Source: Candidatus Zixiibacteriota bacterium (lineage in GTDB: Bacteria > Zixibacteria > MSB-5A5 > JAABVY01 > JAHJOQ01). From it: a stretch of 39,432 nucleotides of DNA. Below are positions 2,210 to 28,564 of the stretch, piece by piece. The stretch lies in NCBI GenBank assembly GCA_018820315.1, contig JAHJOQ010000082.1:1-39432 (forward strand). Reading direction: 5' to 3'. Every line of letters begins with the position of its first letter. Within the stretch, counting starts at the first letter, position 1. Under the pieces are notes generated by a model. That model was not told the DNA's origin and made no database searches. It saw only the letters and a program-made list of their open reading frames with translations. Made by a program: the position numbers and the translations under genes.

Positions 2210-2422
2210 ATGGAATTGTCTGAACTTGTGGTCGTTTGCATTTCTGCGTTTGCAGCCGTTTTTGTGCTTCTTTCAATCCTCGCTTTCGTGATGCGACTGA
2301 TACTGGTGGTGTTTCCTGAAAGAGAGAGCGGAGGCGATGCCACGATGATCGCGGCAGTCGCCTCAGCGCTTTCGACCGTATATCCCGGAACTCGGATTAC
2401 TAAGATAGAGGAGATCAAATGA
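2210..2422 (+). CDS. oadG: Sodium-pumping decarboxylase gamma subunit (OadG-like)
   Basis: A 70-residue protein with one N-terminal membrane helix (about residues 5-35) and a short polar tail, the usual build of the gamma subunit of oxaloacetate/methylmalonyl-CoA decarboxylases, which anchors and helps assemble the alpha-beta complex. The family is too short and variable for motif proof; identity rests on size, topology and the alpha and beta genes that follow. The ATG at 2210 follows the purine-rich ribosome site GGGGAGGGG. Its stop overlaps the start of the alpha gene (ATGA at 2419-2422), indicating translational coupling. Confidence 0.75.
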   Translation: MELSELVVVCISAFAAVFVLLSILAFVMRLILVVFPERESGGDATMIAAVASALSTVYPGTRITKIEEIK

Positions 2423-4291: not shown

Positions 4292-5419
4292 ATGGATACA
4301 TTATTTGAGCTTCTTCAACAATCCGGCTTCGCAAACATCTCTTTTGGCAATGTTGTCATGTTTGCGGTTGCCGGAACGCTTATCTACCTCGCCATTGCCA
4401 GGAAGTATGAGCCTTTGCTGTTGATCCCAATCGGGTTCGGCGCACTGCTTGCAAACCTGCCGCTCGCGGAAATGGGTTCGTATGGCAATGGCATTATGGC
4501 GCTGATCTATGATAAAGGCATCAAGACGGAACTCCTGCCGCCAGTTATATTTCTCGGGGTGGGAGTATTAACTGACTTCCGACCGCTACTGGGAAGACCG
4601 ATCACATTTCTGCTCGGTGCTGCCGCCCAACTGGGGATTTTCGTAGCTGCTCTCGGTGCTGCCTTCTTTCTCGGATTCAATTTCAAGGAGGCTGCAAGTA
4701 TCGGTATCATCGGAGGTGCGGATGGCCCTACATCCATATTTCTTGCATCGCAGTTAGCGCCGCATCTTCTCGGGCCGATAGCAGTGGCAGCTTACAGCTA
4801 CATGTCGCTTGTGCCGATCATCCAGCCACCCATCATGCGGATGCTGACCACAAAGCACGAGAGAGCGATCGACATGCCGCAGCTCAGGCAGGTGTCCAAA
4901 ACAGCGGCAATTCTGTTTCCGATAGTGACCGGGATCATCGCCTGCCTTGGCATACCGTCAAGCGCGCCGCTGATCGGGATGCTGATGTTCGGTAATCTTC
5001 TCAAGGAATGCGGCGTGGCGGAGCGGCTCCGCAAGACCGCCGGTGGGTCATTGATAGATATTGTCACAATCTTCCTCGGTCTCGCCGTGGGAGCGACGAT
5101 GAGTGCTGGGAACTTTCTCAACATCGCTACTCTGAAAATCCTTGTCCTCGGCGCGGTCGCATTCTCTTTCAGCACCGCGGGAGGCGTATTGTTTGCCAAG
5201 CTGCTTAACCTGTTCTTGAGCGAAGGCAGGAAGATGAATCCATGCATAGGTGCAGCAGGAGTTTCGGCCGTGCCGATGTCTGCGCGAGTCGTTCAAAAAT
5301 TCGTGTCGGACGAGACCGATGGCCAGGTAAATGTACTTATGAAGGCAATGGGACCGAATGTTGCCGGCGTGATCGGCTCCGCGGTTGCTGCAGGAGTGTT
5401 CCTTACGCTACTGCGATAG
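4292..5419 (+). CDS. oadB: Sodium-translocating decarboxylase beta subunit
   Basis: 375 residues, almost wholly hydrophobic, with about nine to eleven membrane segments. It carries the family hallmark GGADGPTSIF (D144), the buried aspartate used in sodium binding and carboxybiotin decarboxylation, and a late NPCIGAAGVSAVPMSAR segment matching the second conserved asparagine-containing region. It decarboxylates carboxybiotin on the alpha subunit and couples this to outward sodium transport. It begins 13 bases after the alpha gene and is followed by a strong terminator, so gamma-alpha-beta form one complete operon. Confidence 0.92.
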   Translation: MDTLFELLQQSGFANISFGNVVMFAVAGTLIYLAIARKYEPLLLIPIGFGALLANLPLAEMGSYGNGIMALIYDKGIKTELLPPVIFLGVGVLTDFRPLLGRPITFLLGAAAQLGIFVAALGAAFFLGFNFKEAASIGIIGGADGPTSIFLASQLAPHLLGPIAVAAYSYMSLVPIIQPPIMRMLTTKHERAIDMPQLRQVSKTAAILFPIVTGIIACLGIPSSAPLIGMLMFGNLLKECGVAERLRKTAGGSLIDIVTIFLGLAVGATMSAGNFLNIATLKILVLGAVAFSFSTAGGVLFAKLLNLFLSEGRKMNPCIGAAGVSAVPMSARVVQKFVSDETDGQVNVLMKAMGPNVAGVIGSAVAAGVFLTLLR

Positions 5420-5507: not shown

Positions 5508-8500
5508 TTACGGACATGCCGCGCAAGGCGCAGGGCCGCCTGAAAATATGTGACTCACCAAATACACCGCATCGTCTATGTCGACTTCTCCGGAGCAGTC
5601 CGCATCACCTGCCTCCATGGGATCAGGTGCCGCACCTCCACCGAAGATATATTGGATCAGGGCTACGGCATCATCGATATCGATAGTCCCAGAGCCGTCG
5701 GCATCACCGCACAAATAAGGCTGCTCACTCGTAACGATCAGATTGACTGGAATCGCCCATGGGTTCTCCAGTTCGTCAGGATCATTAGAGTAAACATTGA
5801 TGACAGACGCATAAGTGCCTTCCTCAAGACCATTCGTATTGACTTTGGCTATAAGCGTATCAGCTTCACCCGGAGCAACTTCGCCTTCAGCCGGACCGAC
5901 AGTCAGCCAGAGGGCTGGAGCCATGAACTCGACCGCCAGATTGTTCTTGATGTAGGAAGAGTTGAACACGGTCGTTAGACCGTCATCGCCGGTTGCATTC
6001 TCAATGCCCACCGTGGAACTAAGCACATCAAACCCGGCACCTACCGAAAGGTACTGGATACGAATCCTGCCGCTCGAGTAGATCATCACCTCGGCATTTA
6101 TGACATCGCCTGCTGACGCGCCAAACTCCGGATAATCAACAAACTGGATCACAAGATGATCACCGTCAGACACGTAGTATGTCTTCGATCCGGGATTCGC
6201 GCCGTCTATCGGATTAAGATCATCCCAACACCATGAAATAATATTGTTGGGAACACCAGCGGATGGAAGAACTGTATTCGTACGACTGAGGTAGCCGTCA
6301 GTGGGTCCAAATCCGATCAATCCGTTCGAAGTGATATAGAATTCATCGTACGTGATACCGTAGTAGTTGAAAGAGAACCCAATCGGGAACGGACCAACGA
6401 AATTGTCATCATCGAGACCCGCAACCTCTGTGCCTGTCGCCTGGATGTCCTCCCATGCAAACACGGGACCGCCGGGTTCATCGGAATCCACCCACAGGTA
6501 GCCGAACAGATCGGGACCACCGGCATTGAACCGGACATCGTATCCTTCTCGTGTATCCACTGCACCTTTGATGTCCTCAAAGGAATCGAGGAAGCCTTCG
6601 GGATATGTTCTGTAAGCCGGCTCAACCGGGCCCTGTAGCAGGAGTCTGCCTGCAAGGCTCTCCTTATCGAACACAGGTACTGTCTTGACGGTGTAAGTAA
6701 GAGTCCCCGGACCGCCGTTGTTGATACCAATTTCGGATTGAGCGGAGTCGCCGACCTGAACCATAAAGTCGAGAGCCGTCGGCAAGATCGCGATCGACGG
6801 CGCATAGTCGATTCTGAGATCATCAACAAACCACTCATCGCTGGCCGCTGCCGAACCGAAACTGCTCATCCTGATCTGGAATGAGTTGTGCAATGCATCC
6901 ATCGGAAGCGGTATCTGAACAAATTCGAATTCTGTCATGTCAGGGCCGCTGCCCAATTGCCTACCCAGCTCAAGCCAGTACCCTGATGAGTTCTTATATT
7001 CAAACACGAGATCGTCGCCTGTCTCAGGCGAATCGCCCGGACCGGTTCGTTGATAATAGTACATAAACAATGCGCCGGATTGACCGGAGAGATCGATTAA
7101 CTGAGATACCATCGAGTCAATTCCGCCATCCAGACAGATCGAATACGGCGGTGACGGAGGCTGGTATGCATTGCTCTTTATGACTCCGCCTATATTGACC
7201 ATCCAGTGACTCATGTCGACTGTGGCAGTCTCAAACTCTTCCTGCCACGGTATCGGTGCCGGCGAACCGGCGGAGATCGTGGCAATGATAGCCTCGCCTT
7301 TCACTTCCGCACCACCAGAAGCCGCTATCGCAAACATCGTGTCCGCGCTATTGAGCGGGGCATCTGCCGGAATGGCGATCTTCGCCATCACAAACATAGA
7401 ATCGTTGGGATTCACGCTCGGAGTCACTGTGATCTGCAGAGTCCCGGTCTCATCCCAGAAGGTGCATGCCCAGGTACCCAGCGAGTCACCGAGAGTGTAC
7501 TGATCGGCGTATAAACCCTCATTGTACAGACAAAGCATATAGACAGCGTAATCACCCGCCGGACCGTACTGCTCCTGGAATGATGGGCTTATACGGACTT
7601 GGTATTCAGCAGGGTGACCTACGTAAATATTATCCACGAACCAATCGTCATAAGATCCTACAGTGCCCGAGTTCCAGAAACGGATTCTGAATCCGGCATG
7701 ATATGCTCCAACTGGCAATGTCAGGGATGATTTGACAAACTCAGTCATATCGGGATCGCCTCCCGAATGAGTGGCTATGTTGTGCCAGACACCGAATTCA
7801 TCAAGATAGTCGACGCGAAGGTCGTCAGCTAACTCCGGCGAGTCTCCGCCTCCGCACAACTGATACTCATATGTCACGATGACATTCGATTCATTCTTGA
7901 GATTGATGGACTCAGAGATGAGTGTATCACCGCCGGATGGGTTGCCGTTGAAGTTTATGCTATATGGCGGAGAGGGCTCTTCAATACCGAGAGTGCTGAT
8001 AACAACACCGGCGCCCCTGTCCCACTTGTAAGTATCGAGTGTCGTAGTGAGGAATGTTTCTGTGAAAGGTATCGGCCATGGTTGACCCAAAGAGATCGTC
8101 TTCACAGCAACTCTGTCGCTGACAGCTCCGTCTCCGGCCGATGTCGCAACGACATCTATGCTATCGGACTCACCTTCCCAACTCGAAGGTATTATGACTC
8201 TCACTTTGAAATCGAATGAGGCATCAGCGATGAGCGAAGATGATTCGGTGATTTCGGTAATGCCGGCCGCGTCCCAGAACGTAGTGGGCCAGGTAGCATT
8301 CTCGGTGCTCAGCGAGTACGAATCATCAAGCACGCCATCGTTCGTGACAGAGAGATCATACCATGCCGTGTCGTCAACCGCCGCCATCTGCGAGCTGAAC
8401 TCCGGCCTAAGAAGCACACCGTAGTCGATCACTCTGAATGTGAAGGTCTCGGTAGTATCTTTATTGCCCGCAACATTGACGGCGAAGAAGTAATAGTTGA

Positions 8501-10685
8501 TGACCGTACCGGGCGATTGAGCAGGAATCATGCCGTAATAATCGCCATCCGGTAATGTCGACTGCAACACTTCTTCATACCAGACGGAATTGACTTCGTA
8601 ATAGAGCAGGAGCGAATCTGCTACGAGATCATCCTCTGAGAATATTGTGCAGCGTGCTTCATACGGATTCACAGCGTCCTTTGTATCGGGAAGCGGTGAT
8701 GAGACGATGATAGCCAAATCCGATGTAACCGTAACGGCTTCCTGCACGGTTTCGCGATTGTATGCTGTCACAGTCAAAGTAAGTGCTTGACCGATTGGGA
8801 GCATTTCGCTGATAGGAATAGTGGCCGTGCCACCTGAATTCGTGTAGGCCGATCCGTACATGACGCCATCATGATAAAGAGCACATAATGCACCTTCGAC
8901 GCCAACAGCCTCGACCGCATACTCTGTAGCGGCGAAGAACAGGGCGCCGTCATGAACCAGATTCATAGTGCCCGGAACATCGGTACGCACCTGGACGGAT
9001 GGATCACCGAATATGTGCCATGTATCGTACATGCTGTAGCCAGCGGAACCAGGGTTCAGATCCATCATCTTGCACGAGCCATTAAAACAGAGTCCACCGT
9101 AAGTCGACTTCTGTTCCTGAATCAGGAGATGGCTGACTTCATCCTGCCCATCCATCGGAGGATTCCATGACTGGTTGATCGACGACATATACGCACCGAT
9201 CGCGCCCGTAGGCGTAGATCCATTCGTGGCGCGCAACCATGCTTCCGCGAAGCATGTGTAGCCGTTGAACTGCCCGTTGACACATGCTACACTGATGATA
9301 AAGGGCAGCATATTGTTATTCACGAGAGCGTTAACATTGCTGTTGCTGAAGCCGGTCGTAGACCATGCAGTAGTGCTGCCATGACCGCAGTAATTGATAA
9401 TACTTCGGCCGTTGTTGAGCGCGGTCGTGACCTGAGCGGCCGTTCCGCTTGGATCATAAATCTGATCGACTTCTGTGTACGTGTACGAGAGCAGCGAATC
9501 GCGGATCTTGCCCATATGCACATTATCATACTCGCCGCCGTTGTGTCCGGGTCCCTGGTTGGAAGCAATACCGGTCCCCTTATGGAACCATGTGCCTGCA
9601 AGAGGATTCTTCTCGTAGGTTATCGTACGCGCGACCTGAGTCTGTACATGCGCTGCAGTCTCTGCCGAGAAACGTCCTACGAAAATGTCGGGATAATCGT
9701 CACTTCCTGCTATCTTGGCGTATGTCGGGTCGGACGATCCTCCTGATGCAGTCGGTGTAGCGACTTGCGCGGCGTCACCCACCAGAAGCACGTATGCCAG
9801 GTCTGTCGTATCGTAGAAATCCTCAATGAAATTCTTTATCGATGTCGCATTGTTGCCAATGCTTGACACGTTGACCATCGTCGTCTTCATGCCCTTCTGC
9901 AATTTCCATTCGACAAGCGGCTGCATATCGGAGGCAAATGCGTCGTATGTGATGATCAGCAGGTCACCAGTCTCGCCCACCGGGACATACTTCGCGGCTC
10001 CATCATAGTTTATGAAGCGCTGTTTGTATATCATGTCGAAATCAGGTACGATCCCGGAATGTCTCATGTGAGAGTCAAATACATTAACCTCGGCAGGTCC
10101 GACATTCACGACCTCAACAGTCACCGACGTGTACACGCGCAGTGTGCGGGTGGCCGGATTGTAGGCAAAGGCATTGAGATCGATAACTGTTGCGCGATAA
10201 TCTCTCAGAATGTACGGGGCGCGAATTGATGCCAGCACTTCCGGATAAAGATCGGCAGAACTGTAGACCGGGCCGAACTCGTATGGCACATCGTCAGGAT
10301 TTATCGTACGGAGCAGATTGCCCTTAGAAGGCAGTACCGGGGTTTCAGAAAGCTCGACATACTCGGACAAAAGAACATTGATAGCCATCTTAGCATTGTC
10401 GGGTATGATAATGCTGCGACAAATGCGGGGCAACTCAGGTTCAGCTGCGTCGAGTCGATGACTCTCGTTGTCCAATTTGATCTTGAAATACGTCTCACCT
10501 TCGACGTCAACTGCCTCCTGTTCGAAGGCGCCAACATCGAAGCGAACGACTGTTCTCGTGTCGTTTGATTCCAGAACTGTAATATCGACGTCTTTCGTGG
10601 AGGAACCGAGTTCGATTCTCTCGGCGAACACGGAGGTTGCCGCCAAAAGAAGAATAACCAGAGTCGGTAGCAGAATCCTATGCAT
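5508..10685 (-). CDS. Secreted gingipain-like C25 protease with dockerin
   Basis: 1725 residues with a signal peptide (1-21, ending SVFA). A propeptide-like region (about 25-230) precedes a caspase-fold C25 catalytic domain (about 238-590) with the dyad His435 in NYCGHGS and Cys468 in ISVACVN. Then come a beta-rich region (575-860), two homologous jelly-roll/MAM-like domains (about 870-1025 and 1145-1295, each with SPPYSI, DSPE.(A/G)DDL and DDWFVD-type blocks), a nidogen-like beta region (about 1390-1590), and a type I dockerin with two calcium loops (DADGSGTIDIDD, DADCSGEVDIDD) near 1661-1705. The protein ends PAPCAACP. Likely a cell-surface or extracellular cysteine peptidase cutting after Arg or Lys by analogy with gingipains, though specificity cannot be read here. 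The start has a good ribosome site (GAGAGGAG). Confidence 0.9.
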   Translation of the reverse strand: MHRILLPTLVILLLAATSVFAERIELGSSTKDVDITVLESNDTRTVVRFDVGAFEQEAVDVEGETYFKIKLDNESHRLDAAEPELPRICRSIIIPDNAKMAINVLLSEYVELSETPVLPSKGNLLRTINPDDVPYEFGPVYSSADLYPEVLASIRAPYILRDYRATVIDLNAFAYNPATRTLRVYTSVTVEVVNVGPAEVNVFDSHMRHSGIVPDFDMIYKQRFINYDGAAKYVPVGETGDLLIITYDAFASDMQPLVEWKLQKGMKTTMVNVSSIGNNATSIKNFIEDFYDTTDLAYVLLVGDAAQVATPTASGGSSDPTYAKIAGSDDYPDIFVGRFSAETAAHVQTQVARTITYEKNPLAGTWFHKGTGIASNQGPGHNGGEYDNVHMGKIRDSLLSYTYTEVDQIYDPSGTAAQVTTALNNGRSIINYCGHGSTTAWSTTGFSNSNVNALVNNNMLPFIISVACVNGQFNGYTCFAEAWLRATNGSTPTGAIGAYMSSINQSWNPPMDGQDEVSHLLIQEQKSTYGGLCFNGSCKMMDLNPGSAGYSMYDTWHIFGDPSVQVRTDVPGTMNLVHDGALFFAATEYAVEAVGVEGALCALYHDGVMYGSAYTNSGGTATIPISEMLPIGQALTLTVTAYNRETVQEAVTVTSDLAIIVSSPLPDTKDAVNPYEARCTIFSEDDLVADSLLLYYEVNSVWYEEVLQSTLPDGDYYGMIPAQSPGTVINYYFFAVNVAGNKDTTETFTFRVIDYGVLLRPEFSSQMAAVDDTAWYDLSVTNDGVLDDSYSLSTENATWPTTFWDAAGITEITESSSLIADASFDFKVRVIIPSSWEGESDSIDVVATSAGDGAVSDRVAVKTISLGQPWPIPFTETFLTTTLDTYKWDRGAGVVISTLGIEEPSPPYSINFNGNPSGGDTLISESINLKNESNVIVTYEYQLCGGGDSPELADDLRVDYLDEFGVWHNIATHSGGDPDMTEFVKSSLTLPVGAYHAGFRIRFWNSGTVGSYDDWFVDNIYVGHPAEYQVRISPSFQEQYGPAGDYAVYMLCLYNEGLYADQYTLGDSLGTWACTFWDETGTLQITVTPSVNPNDSMFVMAKIAIPADAPLNSADTMFAIAASGGAEVKGEAIIATISAGSPAPIPWQEEFETATVDMSHWMVNIGGVIKSNAYQPPSPPYSICLDGGIDSMVSQLIDLSGQSGALFMYYYQRTGPGDSPETGDDLVFEYKNSSGYWLELGRQLGSGPDMTEFEFVQIPLPMDALHNSFQIRMSSFGSAAASDEWFVDDLRIDYAPSIAILPTALDFMVQVGDSAQSEIGINNGGPGTLTYTVKTVPVFDKESLAGRLLLQGPVEPAYRTYPEGFLDSFEDIKGAVDTREGYDVRFNAGGPDLFGYLWVDSDEPGGPVFAWEDIQATGTEVAGLDDDNFVGPFPIGFSFNYYGITYDEFYITSNGLIGFGPTDGYLSRTNTVLPSAGVPNNIISWCWDDLNPIDGANPGSKTYYVSDGDHLVIQFVDYPEFGASAGDVINAEVMIYSSGRIRIQYLSVGAGFDVLSSTVGIENATGDDGLTTVFNSSYIKNNLAVEFMAPALWLTVGPAEGEVAPGEADTLIAKVNTNGLEEGTYASVINVYSNDPDELENPWAIPVNLIVTSEQPYLCGDADGSGTIDIDDAVALIQYIFGGGAAPDPMEAGDADCSGEVDIDDAVYLVSHIFSGGPAPCAACP

Positions 10686-15405: not shown

Positions 15406-17256
15406 TCAACCGTATCGCCAGCCCCGATCTCTCACGAGTCTTGGATTCGGTTTCCAGTCTGTCAGCTTCTTTGGTGTATTCTCCTGTGGAGGCGGTGCCG
15501 CCTTCCTGGGAGTCGACATGTAGACTTTGGTTTCTTTCTTTGGAGCAATGCTGTACGATTCTTCCGCTGCTCGGATGATCTCCGGCATCAGGCCTTCTTC
15601 CGCGACAGCTTCGGTAAACTTGCGCCGTCCGCTGACCAGATCGCGAAGATAGTTGTCGATCTGCTCTTGCGAATAGTACTTCTCCGGGACATACGCACTC
15701 AGATCCGCACCCTCAGCAGATACGATTTCGTTAGTTCCGAGGAAACTCTTTCTATACTTGTTCGTGTTACGAAGATCGCCGCGCTGAATTGCAGCCATCG
15801 TTTCGATCGGAACGCGTTCGGTTTTACGAATCACATTCTTTGCACCCTTCTCGCCCGCCTCGATTATTTCACCCATTCCGCCCGTGTTGTACTGGAAGAA
15901 TGAGACCTTATCAGGGTAATTCGCCGTCAAATCCATGATGATCCGATAGAACTGGTTCACCTTGTGTGCGCGCGAGCCCACAATGAACGGATCCGTGCCG
16001 ACCGTGCGAACCGATTCGCCAGCCTTCGCCGGGTTTGATGCGTAGCTGTGGCTCGATTCACCCCAAAGATAGGCCAGGGCTGCCTGAATCGGTGTCAATT
16101 GCTGCGCAAATGCCATGATCGTGTTGCGTCGGGTTATGAATGCGAACACAAGTCCGTCAAGCTCATCCAGCTCCGGGAGGTTATAAGATGGGTACCAGAT
16201 ATTTTTCATCGAGAACGGTCCCCAGCCTCGCTTGATCTTCATCTGCTTCTTCATCGCCACAGCGCGACCATTTCCGCAGAGGTTCTCGTCGAGGAAATCG
16301 GGCTGACCTGCGGCGTTTATCATCACATTTTCATACAGAGCGCTCTTGTGCACGAGGGCATTATACATCGCCTCTTGAAGCTTCTTATCGACATCGGTCT
16401 TAACGAAGAAATTCGCTTCTGAACCGTATGCGGAGCCATCTTTGTTCAGGAAACATATATCATCCTGACAAACAAGCGTCCGCTCGCCTTTCGACCAATC
16501 GAGGCCGAGCTGATGGCAGGACCAGGTGCTCTTGCCGGTAGCGGAAAGCCCAAACAGAAACACTCCATACTTCTTCAGCTTGTTTGTCTTCGGATCGCGG
16601 ATTATCACAACCTTCGTGCCGGCATGCAGACCGAGCATCCCGAGAGCATCGGCTGCGTGCATGCCGTTACGCAGAAAGCCCTTCTTGTCCTCGCCCATGT
16701 AATCTGATCCGAGCACGATCGTCACGTTGTGGTCAGGCAACACCAAAGCCTGCTGACGAATCTGGTGTTCGTCGGGAATGTGAATCAGCGTAAACTCCGG
16801 ACCGGGTGCCTTCGTTACCGGACCCATCGTGTTTCCCCACATGTATGCCTGGCGATGATTCTTTGGATCAGCCACAGACATATAGAGATTGCACTTCGGA
16901 TTGTATTCGGAATTCTGTCCCATCTGACGCTTCAGATGCACGAACGGCAATGTCTCCATCAGGTGCAGAACTTTTTCCAATTCGTCGGGTGCATTGGAAA
17001 TTATCTTCTTCTTCTCGTCAGAGATGTTGAATTCTCTGACCTTCTCAGAACCGAGCGTGACTGTCTTTCCGCCGATTCGGCTTGAGATCGCCGAACGCCA
17101 TCCCCATGAGCCGAACTTAGTCTGTGTGCCGTGGAGGATCGCCGGTTCGCGGATATCATCGAGGTCCACTTCTCTGATGTTCGGGCCATGCAGGCATTTT
17201 TGCAAATTCCTACGGAATCGTGCGTAAATCTCAGGCTGGTATAACGAGTCGGACAT
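15406..17256 (-). CDS. Divergent ATP-type phosphoenolpyruvate carboxykinase
   Basis: 616 residues against about 540 in E. coli PckA. The nucleotide site is clear: FLFGLSATGKST (P-loop, residues 236-244, K242) followed by a second acidic kinase motif CQDDICFL (D265, D266). Upstream, VLGSDYMGEDKKGFLRNGM corresponds to the PckA GT.YAGE.KKG.F block, whose lysine and nearby residues bind oxaloacetate and metal. The expected reaction is oxaloacetate + ATP to PEP + CO2 + ADP. The glycine of the usual GLSGTGKTT is alanine here, and the C-terminus carries a Pro/Lys-rich tail of about 60 residues. It starts 6 bases after ndk (AAGGAG and GGAG upstream) and closes a four-gene operon. Kinase-only or regulatory activity cannot be excluded. 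Confidence 0.78.
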   Translation of the reverse strand: MSDSLYQPEIYARFRRNLQKCLHGPNIREVDLDDIREPAILHGTQTKFGSWGWRSAISSRIGGKTVTLGSEKVREFNISDEKKKIISNAPDELEKVLHLMETLPFVHLKRQMGQNSEYNPKCNLYMSVADPKNHRQAYMWGNTMGPVTKAPGPEFTLIHIPDEHQIRQQALVLPDHNVTIVLGSDYMGEDKKGFLRNGMHAADALGMLGLHAGTKVVIIRDPKTNKLKKYGVFLFGLSATGKSTWSCHQLGLDWSKGERTLVCQDDICFLNKDGSAYGSEANFFVKTDVDKKLQEAMYNALVHKSALYENVMINAAGQPDFLDENLCGNGRAVAMKKQMKIKRGWGPFSMKNIWYPSYNLPELDELDGLVFAFITRRNTIMAFAQQLTPIQAALAYLWGESSHSYASNPAKAGESVRTVGTDPFIVGSRAHKVNQFYRIIMDLTANYPDKVSFFQYNTGGMGEIIEAGEKGAKNVIRKTERVPIETMAAIQRGDLRNTNKYRKSFLGTNEIVSAEGADLSAYVPEKYYSQEQIDNYLRDLVSGRRKFTEAVAEEGLMPEIIRAAEESYSIAPKKETKVYMSTPRKAAPPPQENTPKKLTDWKPNPRLVRDRGWRYG

Positions 17257-17262
17257 CTCCGG

Positions 17263-17685
17263 TCACTCCTTGGGGAGGATTTCATCCTCACTGAAGAAAA
17301 AGGCAACTTCAATCTTGGCATTCGCGGCGCTGTCTGAACCGTGCACCACATTTCTCTCTATCGAGGTTCCGAACTCGCGACGAATCGTGTCATATTTCGC
17401 CTTCGCGGGATCGGTTGCACCCATCAGGTTGCGCCATCTGTCAATGGAATCGTGACCGCCGATAACCATCACGACGATCGGCCCTGAGGTCATGAACTCC
17501 ACCAGCGGCTTGTAGAACGGTTTGTCTGCGTGGACAGCGTAGAATTTCTCGGCTCTCTCTTTTGTGAGATGAAGCACTTTCATCCCCCGGAGGATCAACC
17601 CCTCCTTCTCGATCTTGCTGACAATCGCCCCTATCAGCTTGCGTTGGACGCCGTCAGGTTTCACTATACCCAGTGTATTGGCCAT
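17263..17685 (-). CDS. ndk: Nucleoside diphosphate kinase
   Basis: 140 residues, the standard Ndk length. It has the active-site motif NVVHGSDS with phospho-histidine H115, the N-terminal GIVKPDGV, and GPIVVMVIGG before the nucleotide-binding helix. It transfers the gamma phosphate between nucleoside tri- and diphosphates in the cytoplasm. It lies 9 bases after the aminotransferase fusion and 6 bases before the PEP carboxykinase, so its nucleotide balancing may serve the carboxykinase step. The GGAG ribosome site is well placed. Nothing is missing. Confidence 0.97.
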   Translation of the reverse strand: MANTLGIVKPDGVQRKLIGAIVSKIEKEGLILRGMKVLHLTKERAEKFYAVHADKPFYKPLVEFMTSGPIVVMVIGGHDSIDRWRNLMGATDPAKAKYDTIRREFGTSIERNVVHGSDSAANAKIEVAFFFSEDEILPKE

Positions 17686-17694
17686 CGTATACTC

Positions 17695-20040
17695 CTAACC
17701 CATCAACTCACGAATTCGTGATTTCATTGCCTCGCCCGGAATCGCTGCAATATTAACTTTATACACGTCAGCTACCCTGAATAGCTGGTGGAAATTACGG
17801 CGCTGCAGGTCCTCATTCTCGACCGAAGATGACAGCATGTACGGATTGAAGAAGGGTTGCGTCGAGTACGGCTCCATCCCTGCCTTCGATTGAGGACGAT
17901 ACCGGCCTTCAGTGATCAGATCGAGCGCATCCGCCTCTTTCAGTTTCTCCACAGCCGGAGAATTCGGCTCAAAGCACATGATAGCGATTTTGTTCAAGCG
18001 AGTTCTCTTTGTGTATCCGGTTGGTCCCGCAATCCACGACGGATCGACCATAGCGCGGGAGTCATTGGCTCCCCAGTAGCAATACGGCTCACCCATATCG
18101 AGTGGGCATTCCTCGCCGCTGTCATCGAAGCTCGTCCAGTCGGCCCGAGTCGTTACGACATTCTCGCACTTGCTCCGGTCGAATATTCTCGCATAGTGCG
18201 GGAATTTCTTAGCGATCGATGTCTTAAAGTAGAATTTTCGTTCCGGTGCATCTGCGATTGCTTCGCTGCCCCTATAGCGAACGAAAACCCAGTCGTTAGT
18301 TACGAATTTCGCCTTGCCGTCCTCAAGCAGACTGAAGAAAGTCGAACCGCGTTTCATATCCTTTGGACCGATCAGCGCCAGACCGCGTCCGTCAAAGTCC
18401 AGGCATGCAGCGCGGATTCCGTGAACATCCAGCAGACGTTCGCTGATTTGAGCCGTCATACCGAGCGCCCAGCTTCTGACCTGACCGTAGTGAGATGTGT
18501 TAAACATCACCGCAGTCTTCATGTCGGGATTGTAGTACGCGTATGGCGTCCTTCCCGGCACACCATCGACTACATATATGATGCCGTGCGGTTCGAGATC
18601 AGATTCGAGCTGCGCTGGATACCAGTTCTCCACCCAGAAGTCATACAGATGCGGCACATTTGTGCGCAGTTGAATGATGATACCATTGATGTTCGCATTC
18701 CACTCGAAATAGCGATCATAGGGGAGAGCATTCTCCGCTTCCTGAACCAGAACATCACGTTCATCAACAGAAATTTCAAGTTCCGACTTTGTCATGCCGC
18801 GCGGGTGAGTCATTACATTCTGGAGAGCAACGCGCTTGTACTTCGGTGATTCCGTAAGCTTCGTCATTGCCTCGATGATCCGGTCAGTACCTTCGTCGAT
18901 CTTATCCATAGATGTAGAATACGACAGCCGGATATTCTGGTCCGCTCCAAATGCGCTGCCGGGGACGACGGCGACCGCCGCTTCCTTTAGCAGGTAGTAG
19001 GAGAGGCCATAGGAATTTCGAATCTTCATCCCGCCGGATTCAGTGTTGTAGTATTCCGATGTGTTCGGGAACAGATAGAATGCACCCTGCGGCTCATAAC
19101 AGTTTATTCCGGGGATGCGCCGAATCTTGTTCAGCATGAAATTCCTGCGTGCCTGAAACTCTGCCACCATCTGACTGATCTCGGCTTTGTGGCCGGAAAG
19201 CGCCTCTGCAGCAGCCTTCTGCGCGATCGAGTTTGCGTTCGAGGTCGAGTGGGACTGCACTATGTCCATCGCGCTGATTATCGCTCGCGGTCCTGCGGCA
19301 TAGCCGATCCGCCAGCCGGTCATGGCATACGATTTCGAGACGCCATTTATGATGACTGTCTTCTCTCGAATCTTTTCACCAAGCGATGCGATGGAGCAGA
19401 AGCGGTATCCGTCATAGATGATATGCTCATAGATCTCATCTGCAACAATCAGCAATCCCTCCGACACGGCAATCTCGCAGATTGCCTGCAGTTGTTCGCG
19501 CGTGTAGGCCGATCCGGTAGGATTGCCTGGATTGTTGATGATTATTGCTTTAGTATTGAAATTGATGTTCGCCTTAAGTTCATCCGGTGTGATGCGAAAT
19601 CCATTCTCCTCGCGAGTCGGTACAATTACCGGCTTGCCATCAGCGAGCAAAACCTGCTGCGGGTAGGATACCCAGTATGGCGAAGGGATGATAACCTCCT
19701 CGTCGCGATTGATGATCGCAAGGAAGAGGTTGTACAGACTGTGCTTGGCTCCGCATGAGACAATAATCTCTTTGGCACTGTAGTCCAGTCCGTGATCCTG
19801 CTTCAAACGGGTGCGAATCGCGGCCTTGAGTTCCGGGATGCCGTCGTTGGCCGTGTATCCGGTGAAGTTATTTTCGATGGCGTTTATGCCGGCTTTCTTG
19901 ATATCGGACGGAGTATTGAAATCTGGCTCACCGACTGAGAAATCGATCACATCGATTCCCTCACCCTTCATCGCTTTGGCTTTTGCGCTGATGCGAAGAG
20001 TCGGGGATAGCTCCAGCCTGCCGATCCTGTTGGAAATCAT
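17695..20040 (-). CDS. Aspartate aminotransferase fused to degenerate PEPCK/HPrK-like domain
   Basis: 781 residues from the ATG at 20040 (a GTG at 20043 is an alternative; the following residue numbers count from that GTG). Residues 1-395 form a complete fold-type I aminotransferase of the aspartate class: NNPGNPTG, DEIYE, the PLP lysine K237 in NGVSKSYAMTGWRIGY, and the substrate-binding arginine in IRLSYS (R372). Residues about 400-782 are an unusual second domain. It looks like the PEP carboxykinase/HPr kinase fold: MFNTSHYGQVRSWALGM lines up with the PckA block before the P-loop, then LALIGPKDMKRGSTFF (P-loop position, 559-568) and VTNDWVFVR (second kinase motif). The P-loop is one residue too long and has no Lys before Ser-Thr, so ATP binding is probably lost or changed. 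Role inferred: oxaloacetate supply with a sensing or scaffolding partner domain. The flotillin gene ends 3 bases upstream. Confidence 0.82.
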   Translation of the reverse strand: MISNRIGRLELSPTLRISAKAKAMKGEGIDVIDFSVGEPDFNTPSDIKKAGINAIENNFTGYTANDGIPELKAAIRTRLKQDHGLDYSAKEIIVSCGAKHSLYNLFLAIINRDEEVIIPSPYWVSYPQQVLLADGKPVIVPTREENGFRITPDELKANINFNTKAIIINNPGNPTGSAYTREQLQAICEIAVSEGLLIVADEIYEHIIYDGYRFCSIASLGEKIREKTVIINGVSKSYAMTGWRIGYAAGPRAIISAMDIVQSHSTSNANSIAQKAAAEALSGHKAEISQMVAEFQARRNFMLNKIRRIPGINCYEPQGAFYLFPNTSEYYNTESGGMKIRNSYGLSYYLLKEAAVAVVPGSAFGADQNIRLSYSTSMDKIDEGTDRIIEAMTKLTESPKYKRVALQNVMTHPRGMTKSELEISVDERDVLVQEAENALPYDRYFEWNANINGIIIQLRTNVPHLYDFWVENWYPAQLESDLEPHGIIYVVDGVPGRTPYAYYNPDMKTAVMFNTSHYGQVRSWALGMTAQISERLLDVHGIRAACLDFDGRGLALIGPKDMKRGSTFFSLLEDGKAKFVTNDWVFVRYRGSEAIADAPERKFYFKTSIAKKFPHYARIFDRSKCENVVTTRADWTSFDDSGEECPLDMGEPYCYWGANDSRAMVDPSWIAGPTGYTKRTRLNKIAIMCFEPNSPAVEKLKEADALDLITEGRYRPQSKAGMEPYSTQPFFNPYMLSSSVENEDLQRRNFHQLFRVADVYKVNIAAIPGEAMKSRIRELMG

Positions 20041-20043
20041 CAC

Positions 20044-21444
20044 TTATTCCTTGGCTGGGTTGCTCTTCGGAGGCTGATGCTCGATCTCTTGCCCACCCTG
20101 TTCGGACAACTTCTTCAGCCACGATTCCAGATCAAATCCTGAGAGCGATTTTACGACTGTCGGCAATTGCGCCATCATCGACGCGAGTTCGCCCGTCACC
20201 TTGGAGGTTCCGAGCTTGCCGTCGTTCGAGATCATCACGATCTTGTCGATCTTCGAAATCGGCGCTGCCATCTCGCGAGCGAGTTCGGGCAGTTTTTCGA
20301 ACATCATCTGAAGTAAAGCAGGCTGCGAATACGAATTCCAGGATTCTGCCTTTTTGCGTAGCGCCTCGGCTTCCGCCCGACCAATCTTTTCAATAAGTTC
20401 GGCCTCAATCACTCCCTGGATTCGCTTGGCTTCAGCCATACCTTTCGCTTCCGCCTCAAGCCGGAACTGCTCCGCCTCTGCGGGCTTGCGGACGGTCGCA
20501 TCGAGTTCCTGCTCGACTCGTTCGATCTCTTTTTTCTCGATCTCGATCGCGGAGTTCTTCTCGATGAGCCTGACTTTGCCCTCTTCGGTCTTCAGATCCT
20601 GATTCAGTTTGTGGCGCTGCAATTCATAGGAGAAATCAGCGTCCGCTTTTCTGCGGTTGAGTTCAGTCTGCAATTCAGCATTCTTTAGTTGAAGGTCCTG
20701 GTTCGCTTCCGCGACTTCAGTATCTGCGATAAGTTTCGCGATGTCTCCATCCTTCTTCGCTTGTGCGGATTTGATGATTGCATCGCGAGCAGCCTCGGCT
20801 TCGGCGACTTCGGCATCGCGCCTTGCCTCTACTATGCGCGGCTTTCCGAGCGCTTCGAGATAGCCGGACGGATCGGTGATTTCCTTGAGGTTGAAAGAGA
20901 GCAGTTTCAAGCCCATGTTTGAGAAATAACCACCGACATCATCGAACACCTTTGCAGCGAAATCTTTTCGATTTTTATTCAGCGATTCGATATTCATTGT
21001 TCCAATCAGGGCACGAGTCGAACCTTCGAGAGTCCTGAAAGCCACGTCGCGTATGTCACTGACTGCTTTTCCGAGGAACTGCTCAGACGCGAGGTGAATC
21101 GATGGCTCGTCACCCGCGATCTTCACTTCAGCCGTTCCACGGACCGTGCATCGGATACCATTCGTGGAAATCGCGTCATCAACCTGAATCTCCATGGGGA
21201 TTATCTCCAGTGGGAGAATCTGAGCCTGTTCGATGAATGGGCGCACAAATGTTCCACCCCCGATACGAAAACGGTACCCGATTTGGCGCACCGACCCATC
21301 AGGCATGGTAATCGAGCGTTTCTTCCCTCCCGAGACAATCAGTACTTCGTTCGGACCCACTTTGCGGTAGTTCTTGAGCACAACTACCACTATCGTAGCC
21401 ATAATCACCACGACTGCAATTATTATTATAACCAGGGGGCTCAC
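20044..21444 (-). CDS. Flotillin-like SPFH membrane scaffold protein
   Basis: 466 residues from the GTG at 21444, chosen because AAGGAG lies 8 bases upstream; the GTG at 21453 sits almost on that site. One N-terminal membrane helix (about 3-24) is followed by an SPFH/band 7 domain (about 30-200), then a long charged Ala/Glu-rich coiled coil (about 205-365; repeats such as AEAEAARDA and AEAKGMAEAKR) and the flotillin-type C-terminal region. Flotillins oligomerise on the membrane and organise microdomains. It is the first gene of an operon with three soluble metabolic genes, so it may tether them at the membrane. That link is inference from gene order. Confidence 0.9.
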   Translation of the reverse strand: MSPLVIIIIAVVVIMATIVVVVLKNYRKVGPNEVLIVSGGKKRSITMPDGSVRQIGYRFRIGGGTFVRPFIEQAQILPLEIIPMEIQVDDAISTNGIRCTVRGTAEVKIAGDEPSIHLASEQFLGKAVSDIRDVAFRTLEGSTRALIGTMNIESLNKNRKDFAAKVFDDVGGYFSNMGLKLLSFNLKEITDPSGYLEALGKPRIVEARRDAEVAEAEAARDAIIKSAQAKKDGDIAKLIADTEVAEANQDLQLKNAELQTELNRRKADADFSYELQRHKLNQDLKTEEGKVRLIEKNSAIEIEKKEIERVEQELDATVRKPAEAEQFRLEAEAKGMAEAKRIQGVIEAELIEKIGRAEAEALRKKAESWNSYSQPALLQMMFEKLPELAREMAAPISKIDKIVMISNDGKLGTSKVTGELASMMAQLPTVVKSLSGFDLESWLKKLSEQGGQEIEHQPPKSNPAKE

Positions 21445-21470
21445 AGTATGCACTCCTTACGAATGATAAA

Positions 21471-21721: not shown

Positions 21722-23620
21722 CTACGGGCAGCTTTCGCATGGTGCAGCGCCACCGCTGAATATGTATGAGATTATGTACACAACATCATCGATGTCAACT
21801 CCACCCGAACAGTCTGCATCTCCTGACTCAACCGGAATCGGTGCCGGCCCGCCGGTGAAGATGTAGCTGATCAGGTAGACGACGTCATCAATGTCTATCT
21901 CAAGGCTGGCATCAGCATCGCCGCATACCCATTCCGGAGGCGGCGGATCATCGATCACCATTGATATCGTTACAGTATCCTTCGCGCCCGTCTGATCAGT
22001 GACTATGACTGAAAAGTAGTAGCTGTCCTTCCATCCCGGCGTGCCGGAGAGAACTCCGGTGCTGTTATTGATAGAAAGCCCGAATGGGAATTGACCGATG
22101 CCCTTAGCCCACGTATATGGTCCGACTCCTCCAACCGCCCAGAATTGGTATGTATATGGTTCCTGATAGTAAGCATCATTCAAGTCCAGGCAGCACTGGA
22201 TATAGACGCCCTCTGCTTCGCACGGATCCCCGGTTCCGTCTCCGTCTGCATCATATTGGTAGATATTCGAGATCATGGGACAATTGTCGCAGGCATCGCC
22301 AAACGTATCGTTATCTGTGTCAGTCTGCGATGGGTTCGCATCGTCCGGACAGTTGTCCTCAAGACAGGTGTTGAGCACGTAGCCGGGATCGCCGTACCCG
22401 TCGTCATCGGAATCGGTACAGTCGTCGCACGCGTCGCCGAGCCCGTCGGCATCGCCATCAAATTGATCGCGGTTCGGTGTCGATTCGCAGTTGTCGCAAA
22501 CGTTACCAACAGTGTCGGCATCACTGTCTTCCTGTCCCAGGTTCGCCACTGTTGGACAGTTATCGTTTACGTTCAGAATGCCGTCGTTGTCAACATCGGT
22601 ATCGGTCCACGAGAATAGCTCGGATGATATCCAGCATTGCATCCTGCCAGATTGCTGGTATGAGAACTCTGTCTGGCAAACATCCGACGAATAGCCCATG
22701 TAATTCTGAACGTCCGTGGTTCCCCAGCTTTTGCCACTGCAGGGATCGGAACCGCCCGGAGGGCTGCAACTAAAATTGGTGGGTGTCGGATCTGTATCTG
22801 CGCAGAAGTCGCCTCTTATGTCGCCAAATGAGGTCTGCGGCTCCTCGTAGCATCCACCACACTCGGTCACTTCATCAACGCCGTGGAATGTATGCCACAG
22901 TCCGAGACAATGTCCCACTTCGTGAGAAAGAGTGGTGTAGTTGTAGCCTATGTAGCTGTCATCAACTATGATACCACCCAGATAGTTGAGAGCTCTCGAA
23001 TCCCAGGGGAAAGTGCCGACTCCGATGTAAAACGAATTGATGTCGACAATATATATGTTGAGCTTAGTGCCAGGGCTGTCGGAATTGTTGAATTTCATTC
23101 CCGATTCTTCCGGATCCTCGAAAAACCTGTATTGAGTCGAGTTAATGAACTCTGTCTCGTATAGGAATTGTATCTTGTGGGGCAGATAGTCCGCCTGGAG
23201 CCTGTCAACTGCCGCGTCGACCTCCGCCTGCGTGGCTGCTGAATTGGAACCGTCATCCTCTCGAAACACATTAAACTTCAGTCTTATCCAGATGATCGGG
23301 TCGTACTGCTCGGGCAGGTATAAATTGCGGGTAGCAGGGTTGTCGCACGATCCCTGGCTGGGGCAGGGAAGAGCAGGATCGAACATGAAATCCTTGTCTG
23401 CCGCATTCTGTTCATAGCTAACCTGCGTGTTGCACCAGTTCCCGCCATACTCGTGGATGATCTCTCTCGCCTGTTGCGGGTTGCTCTCAGCCTGCAGCTT
23501 CCATTCCGGAATTGGCTCGGCCCTGTCGCTTCCCGAAGTCGCGTCTTCCGCAAGGCTGATCGAGACCATGCTGAGAACAAGCACAAGTGCAAGGGAAAAT
23601 CGCAAAACTCTCACTTTCAT
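21722..23620 (-). CDS. Secreted M43 (pappalysin-type) metalloprotease with dockerin
   Basis: 632 residues from the ATG at 23620 (a GTG at 23632 is an alternative). Signal peptide about 1-24 (ISLAEDA). The zinc site is [13 protein letters not shown] (extended HExxHxxGxxH, near residues 233-243), with the Met-turn in NYMGYS and paired cysteines typical of M43B enzymes. Next come thrombospondin type 3 calcium repeats (about 340-470; [18 protein letters not shown]), an Ig-like putative-binding domain (about 475-560; [15 protein letters not shown]) and a dockerin with two calcium loops ([24 protein letters not shown]). The protein ends AAPCESCP. An extracellular calcium-stabilised endopeptidase is expected. 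It has its own promoter and terminator. Confidence 0.9.
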
Positions 23621-23723
23621 CGTGACTCTCACTTTCTATAATAATTGATTGTATTCAAACCAACATCGAGGCGACACCAGCCTGCCCCCGATTCCCATGA
23701 GATATAATGGATTATACAGATGC

Positions 23724-26200: not shown

Positions 26201-28564
26201 TTACACCACCCCATGTTCCGTGCGGCGGATGATCTCGTTCTGCAGGTCAATGCCGAGATCGACGAAATAATCTGAATATCCCGCGACTCGAACGATTAGA
26301 TCGCGATATTTCTCCGGTTCCTTCTGCGCTTTGTGAAGAGTCTCTGCCGTTACGACATTAAACTGAATATGATGGCCATCCATCTTGAAATAAGCTCTCA
26401 CCAGATGCGCGAGCTTCGTAATACCGTCGTCATCTTCAAGAATCTGCGGAGTGAATTTCTGATTCAGCAGCGTGCCACCAGTTCTGAGATGGTCGATCTT
26501 GGCTGCCGATTTCACAACAGCAGTCGGACCTTTGCGATCCGCCCCCTGCACCGGAGAAATCCCCTCCGACACCGGCTCACCAGCCAGCCTGCCATCCGGC
26601 AACGCTCCCGTCACGCTCCCGAAATAGATGTGACACGTCGTAGGCAACAGGTTGATTCGGTGATGTCCCCCCTTGGTGTTCGGTCTGCCATCGATTGCAT
26701 TGAAGTAACTCTCGAATATTCTGCGAAGAACATCATCAGCATAATCATCATCATTGCCATACTTGGGAGTCTCGCACAAAAGCTGCCGCCTGATCTCATC
26801 GCAACCCTCGAAATTGTTGCTCAGAGCAAAGATCAATTCATCGAAAGTGAAGGTCTTCTTGTCGAACACATGACACTTGATGGCAGTCAGCGAATCAGTG
26901 ATGGTTCCTATTCCAACGCCCTGAATGTAGGACGTGTTATACCGCGCGCCGCCGTCGTTATAGTCTCTTCCGGTCTTAATACAATCATCAATCAGGATCG
27001 ACAGAAACGGCGCAGGAAGATACTTCGCCCACAATCTCTCGATCACAAGATTGCCCTTGATCTTGATATCGACGAAGTGCCGGAGCTGCGTCTCGAACGC
27101 GGCATATAGCTTGTCGAATGATGTGAAGGACTTCGGGTCGCCAGTCGCAACGCCGATCTGCTTTCCGGTCTGAGGATCGACGCCGTCATTGAGAGCAATC
27201 TCGAAGACTTTGGGGAGATTGAAGTATCCAGTCAGGATATAGCTTTCCTTGCCGAACGCGCCCGTCTCGACACATCCGCTTGCGCCACCGTTGCGAGCAT
27301 CGATGATCGACTTTCCCTGCCGAACCATCTCCTGAACAATCGCATCGCTATTGAAAATCGACGGCTGACCGAATCCTGTTCTTACAATTGTGAGCGCCCG
27401 CTTAAGATACTGATCCGGATTCTTCTTGCTGACCTGTACCATCGAACTCGGCTGCAAAAGACGCATCTCCTCGATGATATCGAGAATCAGATATGTCAGT
27501 TCATTGACAGCATCCTCACCGGTCTCTTTAACACCACCGAGATTGATGAGGCAGAAGTCGGTATATGTGTTGCTCTCCAGAGCTGTCACGCCAACTTTCG
27601 GTGGCGCAGGCTGATTGTTGAACTTGATCCAGAATGATTGCAGGAGTTCTCTCGCGCGATCCTCGGTGAGAGTGCCATCGGCAATGCTCTTCCTATAGAA
27701 CGGCAGCAGGTGTTGATCGAGTCGACCCGGATTAAACGAATCCCAGGTGTTCAGTTCGGTGATTACTCCAAGGTGGACAAACCAGTAATACTGAAGCGCC
27801 TCCCAGAAATTCTCTGGAGCATGCGCTGGTACGCGCTCGCAGATGCACGCCATCTCATAGAGTTCCTGCTTACGGATAGCATCCGATTCTCCGTTCGAGA
27901 GCTCTTTCAATCTCTCCGCATGCCGCCGGGAGTACATCATAATCGCATCAGCGGCTATGGACATTGCCTTGAGTTGTTCTCTCTTGTCAAATGCCCTCGG
28001 ATCATTGTAGAAATCAAGATTGTCAATGCTTGCTTCAATGTCCCTCACGAAATCGAGCATTCCCTTACTGTATATTTTGCCATCGAGAACAGTGTGTCCG
28101 GGAGCTCGCTGCTCCATGAATTCGGTGAATATGCCCGCGTTATAGGCGTCTTTCCAGGCGTCATCGATTTCGGAGAATATTCGGTTTCGCATTGACCTAC
28201 CAGACCAACAGGGAATGATCGTATCATTCTGCATCTGCCGAACATCATCGGAAACCGAGAACGACACTTTCTCGCGCGAATTCAGAATGTCGAAATCATC
28301 GAGGCTGTGAGTGCAGATCTCCGGATAAGTAGGTGTCGATTTCGGCTCGGGACCTCTTTCGCCGACAATTAACTCACCGTCATTGATACAAATCGCTTTA
28401 TGATGGACGATGTATTTGAATGCAAGCGCTCTGGCAACCGGCACAGAGACGCGCACCGGTTCACCACTGTCATAGAACTCTGTCAGCAACGCAGCTCTCT
28501 CGATCGATATGCATGGTTTGGCGTCCAGGCTCCGCTGTCTCAGCTTTGAGATTCTATCATTCAT
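26201..28564 (-). CDS. hypD: Glycyl radical enzyme, trans-4-hydroxyproline dehydratase-like
   Basis: 787 residues, full length for the family. The glycyl radical loop is RVAGYSDYF (G762), and the active-site loop is GGASGCVETG (thiyl radical C431, E433). From memory the sequence runs closely parallel to Clostridioides difficile HypD with a 3-residue offset (C434, E436, G765 there), including EQRAPGHTV (H157), TWDSF (D275), PPKVGVT and the stretch from QGVGIGTITDSLTAIK to TPKYGNDDDYADD. HypD removes water from trans-4-hydroxy-L-proline to give pyrroline-5-carboxylate. One change near the active loop is ETGAFGKE where HypD has ETGCFGKE. No proC is present here. The activase gene ends 6 bases upstream, with GGAGG between them. 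Other dehydratase specificities remain possible. Confidence 0.85.
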   Translation of the reverse strand: MNDRISKLRQRSLDAKPCISIERAALLTEFYDSGEPVRVSVPVARALAFKYIVHHKAICINDGELIVGERGPEPKSTPTYPEICTHSLDDFDILNSREKVSFSVSDDVRQMQNDTIIPCWSGRSMRNRIFSEIDDAWKDAYNAGIFTEFMEQRAPGHTVLDGKIYSKGMLDFVRDIEASIDNLDFYNDPRAFDKREQLKAMSIAADAIMMYSRRHAERLKELSNGESDAIRKQELYEMACICERVPAHAPENFWEALQYYWFVHLGVITELNTWDSFNPGRLDQHLLPFYRKSIADGTLTEDRARELLQSFWIKFNNQPAPPKVGVTALESNTYTDFCLINLGGVKETGEDAVNELTYLILDIIEEMRLLQPSSMVQVSKKNPDQYLKRALTIVRTGFGQPSIFNSDAIVQEMVRQGKSIIDARNGGASGCVETGAFGKESYILTGYFNLPKVFEIALNDGVDPQTGKQIGVATGDPKSFTSFDKLYAAFETQLRHFVDIKIKGNLVIERLWAKYLPAPFLSILIDDCIKTGRDYNDGGARYNTSYIQGVGIGTITDSLTAIKCHVFDKKTFTFDELIFALSNNFEGCDEIRRQLLCETPKYGNDDDYADDVLRRIFESYFNAIDGRPNTKGGHHRINLLPTTCHIYFGSVTGALPDGRLAGEPVSEGISPVQGADRKGPTAVVKSAAKIDHLRTGGTLLNQKFTPQILEDDDGITKLAHLVRAYFKMDGHHIQFNVVTAETLHKAQKEPEKYRDLIVRVAGYSDYFVDLGIDLQNEIIRRTEHGVV

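Follow-up and report, generated by a model that had tools for sequence, protein, structure and literature searches.

Genes at the fusion locus

The window, a stretch of 39,432 nucleotides, carries a tight minus-strand operon that encodes, in order, a flotillin, a two-domain fusion protein, a nucleoside diphosphate kinase (ndk), and a divergent PEP carboxykinase (PEPCK). The fusion gene is a single unbroken open reading frame (17695-20043, minus strand, 782 codons) with a GTG start codon and ATG as its second codon. Its product consists of a predicted class I aspartate aminotransferase (residues 1 to 396), a flexible linker, and a PEPCK-fold domain (residues about 401 to 782). The operon and the parts of the fusion are as follows:

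20044..21453, minus strand: flotillin/band-7 protein, directly upstream of the fusion, gap 0 (PF01145, E = 1.4e-22; PF15975)
18856..20043, minus strand: class I aspartate aminotransferase domain (specificity predicted), residues 1-396, catalytic Lys237 (PF00155, E = 2.9e-75)
18823..18843, minus strand: flexible linker between the domains, residues 401-407 (pLDDT < 50 in the full-length AF2 model)
17698..18843, minus strand: probable PEPCK-like pseudoenzyme domain, residues 401-782 (AF2, Foldseek, hhalign)
17263..17685, minus strand: nucleoside diphosphate kinase, starting 9 bp past the fusion gene (PF00334, E = 2e-54)
15406..17256, minus strand: divergent PEPCK, its active-site motifs intact, starting 6 bp past ndk (PF01293, E = 1.2e-23, partial)

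By sequence, the N-terminal half of the fusion is an intact class I aminotransferase with predicted aspartate specificity, as an earlier note on this DNA had read residues 1 to 395. Its nearest PDB entries are the aspartate aminotransferases 6f77 and 1j32 (E = 1e-104), and K237, N174, D202, Y205, R245, and R372 are invariant among 44 fused homologues. Like these class I enzymes, the fusion has a full-length domain with all catalytic residues; unlike them, it has an extra 380-residue domain and scores below equivalog cutoffs, the best model being PRK06107 aspartate transaminase with 427.6 bits against the 617 required. In a full-length AF2 model, both domains were confident and their mutual placement was not fixed (pTM 0.55), with the linker disordered. 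A sequencing join of two genes, which the earlier note had named as a possible artifact, or an assembly error was ruled out, as 45 full-length fused homologues share the architecture and a length of 775 to 792 residues.

Two genes downstream, where the earlier note had placed a genuine PEPCK, there is indeed a PEPCK-like gene with its conserved motifs intact (DYMGEDKKG, GLHAG, GLSATGKST, QDDI, and NGRA), but it is a divergent paralogue (272 bits against NF006821, cutoff 369), and the canonical pckA lies elsewhere in the genome. Flotillin is present at 52 fusion loci and lies directly upstream in nearly all those with enough sequence, with one possible exception. No ndk other than that of the operon was found in the genome. 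The earlier note had asked whether ndk always travels with the fusion; linkage of the two is confined to one clade, the Zixibacteria core, plus one Ignavibacteriales locus, and ndk was ruled out as an obligate partner.

Two oxaloacetate decarboxylase-like genes lie about 10 kb from the operon on the plus strand, one alpha-like (PYC_OADA plus biotin domain, 2419-4278) and one beta (OAD_beta, E = 6e-150, 4292-5419), and the region is thus well supplied with oxaloacetate enzymes. Minus-strand genes elsewhere in the window encode a 1,725-residue family C25 (gingipain family) peptidase with a propeptide (5508-10685), a pyruvate formate-lyase-like glycyl radical enzyme (26201-28564; PF02901, PF01228), and, upstream of the operon (21722-23632), a large protein that by eye has C-terminal dockerin-like repeats as well as a metalloprotease-like [11 protein letters not shown] motif.

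Predicted fold of the C-terminal domain

The C-terminal 382 residues of the window protein matched no Pfam family, including PF01293, which matched 2 of 58 domain homologues weakly, and a plain phmmer search of the domain against the PDB found nothing. An AF2 model of the domain, built from the 58 homologues, had a mean pLDDT of 89.9 and a pTM of 0.89. The best 50 Foldseek matches listed from the PDB were all PEPCKs (E = 4.8e-18 to 1.6e-12, TMq 0.63-0.76), and the model is predicted to have the two-lobe fold of ATP-dependent PEPCKs (TMq about 0.7-0.76, E about 1e-17). Profile-profile comparison by hhalign matched the domain to the neighboring divergent PEPCK family (E = 2.9e-8) and to the canonical PckA of the phylum (E = 7e-9). 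These alignments are colinear across the Tyr/Lys site, the His site, the P-loop, the second kinase motif, the ENV motif, and the Arg333 site.

The earlier note had suggested a PEP carboxykinase/HPr kinase fold and had asked for a structural comparison that might reveal an unrelated one. The comparison bears out the PEPCK side of that suggestion, and an unrelated fold was ruled out by the best 50 matches. HPr kinase/phosphorylase (PF07475) shares the PEPCK-like P-loop superfamily with the domain and gives a weak profile match (E = 0.004 to PDB 1knx), but no HPr kinase is among the best 50 Foldseek matches and no HPr-type partner gene was seen. Hpr_kinase_C had no match in the window protein and weak matches in 19 of the 58 homologues (best E = 5e-4), and an HPr kinase identity was rejected. 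With the fold search dominated by PEPCK and not by HPr kinase, PEPCK-like is the most fitting name for the domain.

Compared with ATP-dependent PEPCKs (PF01293; Thermus thermophilus 2pc9, Trypanosoma cruzi 1ii2, and E. coli PckA), the domain has the same fold in both lobes and shares the colinear motifs, including the second Asp, ENV, and an R333-like Arg. It differs in having no competent P-loop, in having Ser and Arg at the metal-ligand Lys and His positions, and in a shorter N terminus, fused to the aminotransferase; it also falls under Pfam detection.

Active-site motifs and their decay

Two sites in the domain carry the nucleotide-binding motifs:

18340..18369, minus strand: degenerate P-loop GPKDMKRGST, residues 559-568, with R565 at the Walker Lys position and G566 at the Ser/Thr position (about 85 homologues aligned)
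18292..18297, minus strand: kinase-2 site N583-D584, with the first Asp lost and the Asp equivalent to the Mn ligand kept (homologue alignment)

Aligned with APTGTGKST of free-standing relatives, the window's GPKDMKRGS shows substitutions of G to D, G to K, K to R, and S/T to G, and its "ST" sits one residue downstream of the true Ser/Thr position. The earlier note's broken P-loop thus stands as to the Lys and Ser/Thr, but not as to an extra residue: the alignment ruled out an insertion, leaving substitutions only. The domain does not have the kinase-1a P-loop of ATP-PEPCKs, G-x-SGTGK[ST]. The second kinase motif, VTNDW (residues 581-585), is partly kept, as the note had it, with the second Asp in place and the first lost. 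In E. coli numbering, the Mn2+ ligands are Lys213, His232, and Asp269, and Arg333 binds substrate. By profile alignment rather than superposed coordinates, the ligand equivalents are S524, R544, and D584, of which the Asp alone is kept; by the same alignment the Arg333 equivalent, R663, is kept (NDSRAMVDP aligned with ENTRAAYP).

The homologues range from intact to decayed. Free-standing relatives have APTGTGKST or a near variant, (S/G/A)DDW, the Lys of YYGQ(C/L)KSW, and the His of HSIHG. Among fused copies, the P-loop is kept or nearly kept in four Zixibacteria families (APKGTGKS, FFPPASGKS), is mostly GPKGTKKTE with SND or TNE in Calditrichota, Bacteroidota, and Aminicenantota, and is GPKGxKRGST with TNDW in the Zixibacteria core that includes the window, where the P-loop Lys and Ser/Thr are gone and the first Asp of kinase-2 usually is. 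The Lys of YYGQxKS is replaced by Arg in all fused copies and the metal-ligand His by Arg in nearly all; the second Asp persists, as does the ENV motif. Saccharicenans-type Aminicenantota and other lineages without divergent PEPCK retain the Walker Lys in the fused domain (e.g., GQPGTKKTEL).

We consider the window's C-terminal domain a probable PEPCK-like pseudoenzyme domain, because the P-loop Lys and Ser/Thr and the metal-site Lys and His equivalents are replaced. Within the core clade, the domain is about 70 to 78% identical, compared with 72 to 84% for the aminotransferase, which argues that the domain has retained a function. That function could conceivably be catalysis with changed chemistry, the domain then being a PEPCK/HPr-kinase superfamily member that acts as kinase or phosphatase and uses Arg where Lys and His are usual. 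The intact P-loops of the free-standing relatives and some fused clades, the weak Hpr_kinase_C matches, and the conserved second Asp and ENV motif are consistent with such an enzyme, but the losses in the window and its core clade, and the His-to-Arg change in nearly all fused copies, make it improbable.

Distribution and phylogeny

A scan of a genome collection yielded 78 loci, 60 of them in the fused cluster, and the roughly 60 fusion loci fall in Zixibacteria, Calditrichota, Ignavibacteria/Bacteroidota, and Aminicenantota. In the tree, fused sequences group together, apart from free-standing relatives (SH-aLRT 96). Three fusion contigs labeled Acidobacteria, Clostridiales, and a Thermoplasmatota archaeon have tree positions within Zixibacteria or Aminicenantota and are probably misbinned or mislabeled.

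Free-standing relatives occur in Myxococcota-type "Deltaproteobacteria," Nitrospirota, Bipolaricaulota, and Planctomycetota, and one of 581 to 600 residues is also found in two Zixibacteria genomes. At 20 loci they are uncharacterized PEPCK-fold proteins of about 360 to 600 residues with an intact P-loop. Their neighbors (by eye, guaA, guaB, LOG-like, and SppA-like genes) gave no functional lead.

One genome, G112, has the same aminotransferase without the C-terminal domain. Because its aminotransferase nests among the fused ones in the tree, the domain was probably lost there, and so the domain can be lost. This case is consistent with the domain being an architectural relic, inert ballast on a housekeeping aminotransferase whose operon partners co-occur by shared ancestry. 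We find that very improbable: the domain keeps nearly the same length at some 60 loci across several phyla and is about 74% identical within the core clade, and in G112 the absence of the domain coincides with the absence of the divergent PEPCK.

Co-occurrence with the divergent PEPCK

The divergent PEPCK follows the fusion in Zixibacteria, Calditrichota, Bacteroidota, and part of Aminicenantota. We sampled 132 Zixibacteria genomes, 40 of which have the fusion, leaving out two with the free-standing form. The divergent PEPCK was found in 37 of the 40 fusion genomes versus none of the 92 others (Fisher P = 1e-29 for genomes and 3e-21 for genera, values that overstate independence, since genomes within clades are related). 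In at least eight Zixibacteria genomes the two genes are unlinked, yet both are present. Every Zixibacteria fusion genome that lacks the Walker Lys has the divergent PEPCK, and five genomes at least 94% complete have it with no canonical PEPCK detected. Of 40 Calditrichota genomes, 10 have the divergent PEPCK; the fusion is found in 9 of these and in no genome outside the 10. One genome with the fusion also has, directly downstream of the divergent PEPCK, an unfused aminotransferase 42% identical to that of the window.

The earlier note had asked whether the fusion always travels with pckA: with the divergent PEPCK as the companion, it does so in most Zixibacteria fusion genomes but not in some fused lineages. 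Three Zixibacteria fusion genomes are without this PEPCK. Beyond the Zixibacteria core, 28 fusion genomes were sampled and 13 of them lack it, Saccharicenans-type Aminicenantota for the most part. Since the fusion occurs without the divergent PEPCK, pairing with it is not the fusion's sole role everywhere, and since Saccharicenans-type Aminicenantota keep the fusion without it, the role may be purely regulatory.

These lineages bring in the main rival explanation, an on-board sensor whose binding of PEP, oxaloacetate, or a nucleotide would tune its own aminotransferase, with no direct contact to the divergent PEPCK. The fusion persists without a partner PEPCK and retains the Walker Lys there (GQPGTKKTEL, APKGTGKS), the window keeps R663, and the fusion is the constant element across phyla. 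A sensor alone, however, gives no account of the near-perfect co-occurrence in Zixibacteria and Calditrichota, unlinked cases included. We regard it as unlikely as a general explanation, although in lineages without a partner PEPCK the domain may act as a sensor towards the aminotransferase.

A plain aminotransferase-pckA pair in the same phylum

In many Zixibacteria that lack the fusion, a canonical pckA is immediately preceded by a plain aminotransferase gene. This aminotransferase belongs to another clade, found in 55 Zixibacteria genomes, 50 of which have canonical pckA within 300 bp. None of the 55 is among the 40 fusion genomes (Fisher P = 1e-12 for genomes and 3e-10 for genera, with relatedness again overstating independence). 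The aminotransferase-linked pckA forms a separate clade (support 100) that contains no sampled PckA from a fusion genome, and in five families the fusion type and the plain pair occur side by side. This operon was seen at six loci, one of which has a second aminotransferase after pckA as well. The pattern points to an exchange between two solutions for one job, an aminotransferase coupled to PEPCK, although the aminotransferase by itself might account for the mutual exclusion.

A proposed assembly at the oxaloacetate node

We propose, with a probability of roughly 0.4, that the PEPCK-like pseudoenzyme domain docks onto or regulates the divergent PEPCK and thereby couples aspartate, oxaloacetate, and PEP, in the manner of a prozyme. 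The fusion would be a two-headed subunit: a working PLP-dependent aspartate aminotransferase, a flexible linker, and a PEPCK-fold domain with no competent nucleotide or metal site in this lineage. The dead domain would pair with the motif-intact divergent PEPCK of the same operon and position or regulate it, so that aspartate, oxaloacetate, and PEP could be interconverted within one assembly. Flotillin may anchor this assembly at the membrane; NDK may balance or recycle nucleotides. The physical complex, channelling or activation, the direction of flux, and the roles of flotillin and NDK are parts of the proposal that we infer. In its fullest version, advanced a shade more tentatively, a PEPCK prozyme would be part of an aspartate aminotransferase chain, the result would be an obligate heteromeric aspartate-oxaloacetate-PEP assembly that flotillin may tether to the membrane, and within a single phylum this assembly would take turns with the usual aminotransferase-pckA pair. 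The earlier note's idea of a dead copy in partnership with the neighboring PEPCK gains from the fold search, the motif decay, and the strong co-occurrence; fused lineages without a partner PEPCK fall outside it. The subunit's role may be any of the three that the note offered: regulatory, channelling, or hetero-oligomeric.

Prozymes are dead paralogues that pair with and activate a live enzyme, as in trypanosome AdoMetDC (PMC5201418) and deoxyhypusine synthase (PMC3663545). By sequence, the fusion domain would be a dead copy retained beside a live homologue, and heteromeric activation is suggested by analogy. It differs in sharing one chain with the enzyme of the adjacent metabolic step, and activation is a proposal here. 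A search of the open-licence literature found no description of a fusion of PEPCK and transaminase or of a catalytically dead PEPCK domain, which is not proof of absence.

PEP carboxykinase stands where the TCA cycle meets gluconeogenesis. In several little-studied bacterial phyla, the fusion usually occurs alongside an unusual PEPCK of working type, with its motifs intact, which suggests an undescribed two-enzyme assembly at this main metabolic junction. If the proposal is true, a bacterial pseudoenzyme would physically join two successive steps at the oxaloacetate node, and the natural series of domains from intact to dead would, if the assembly is real, make the emergence of such a subunit testable.
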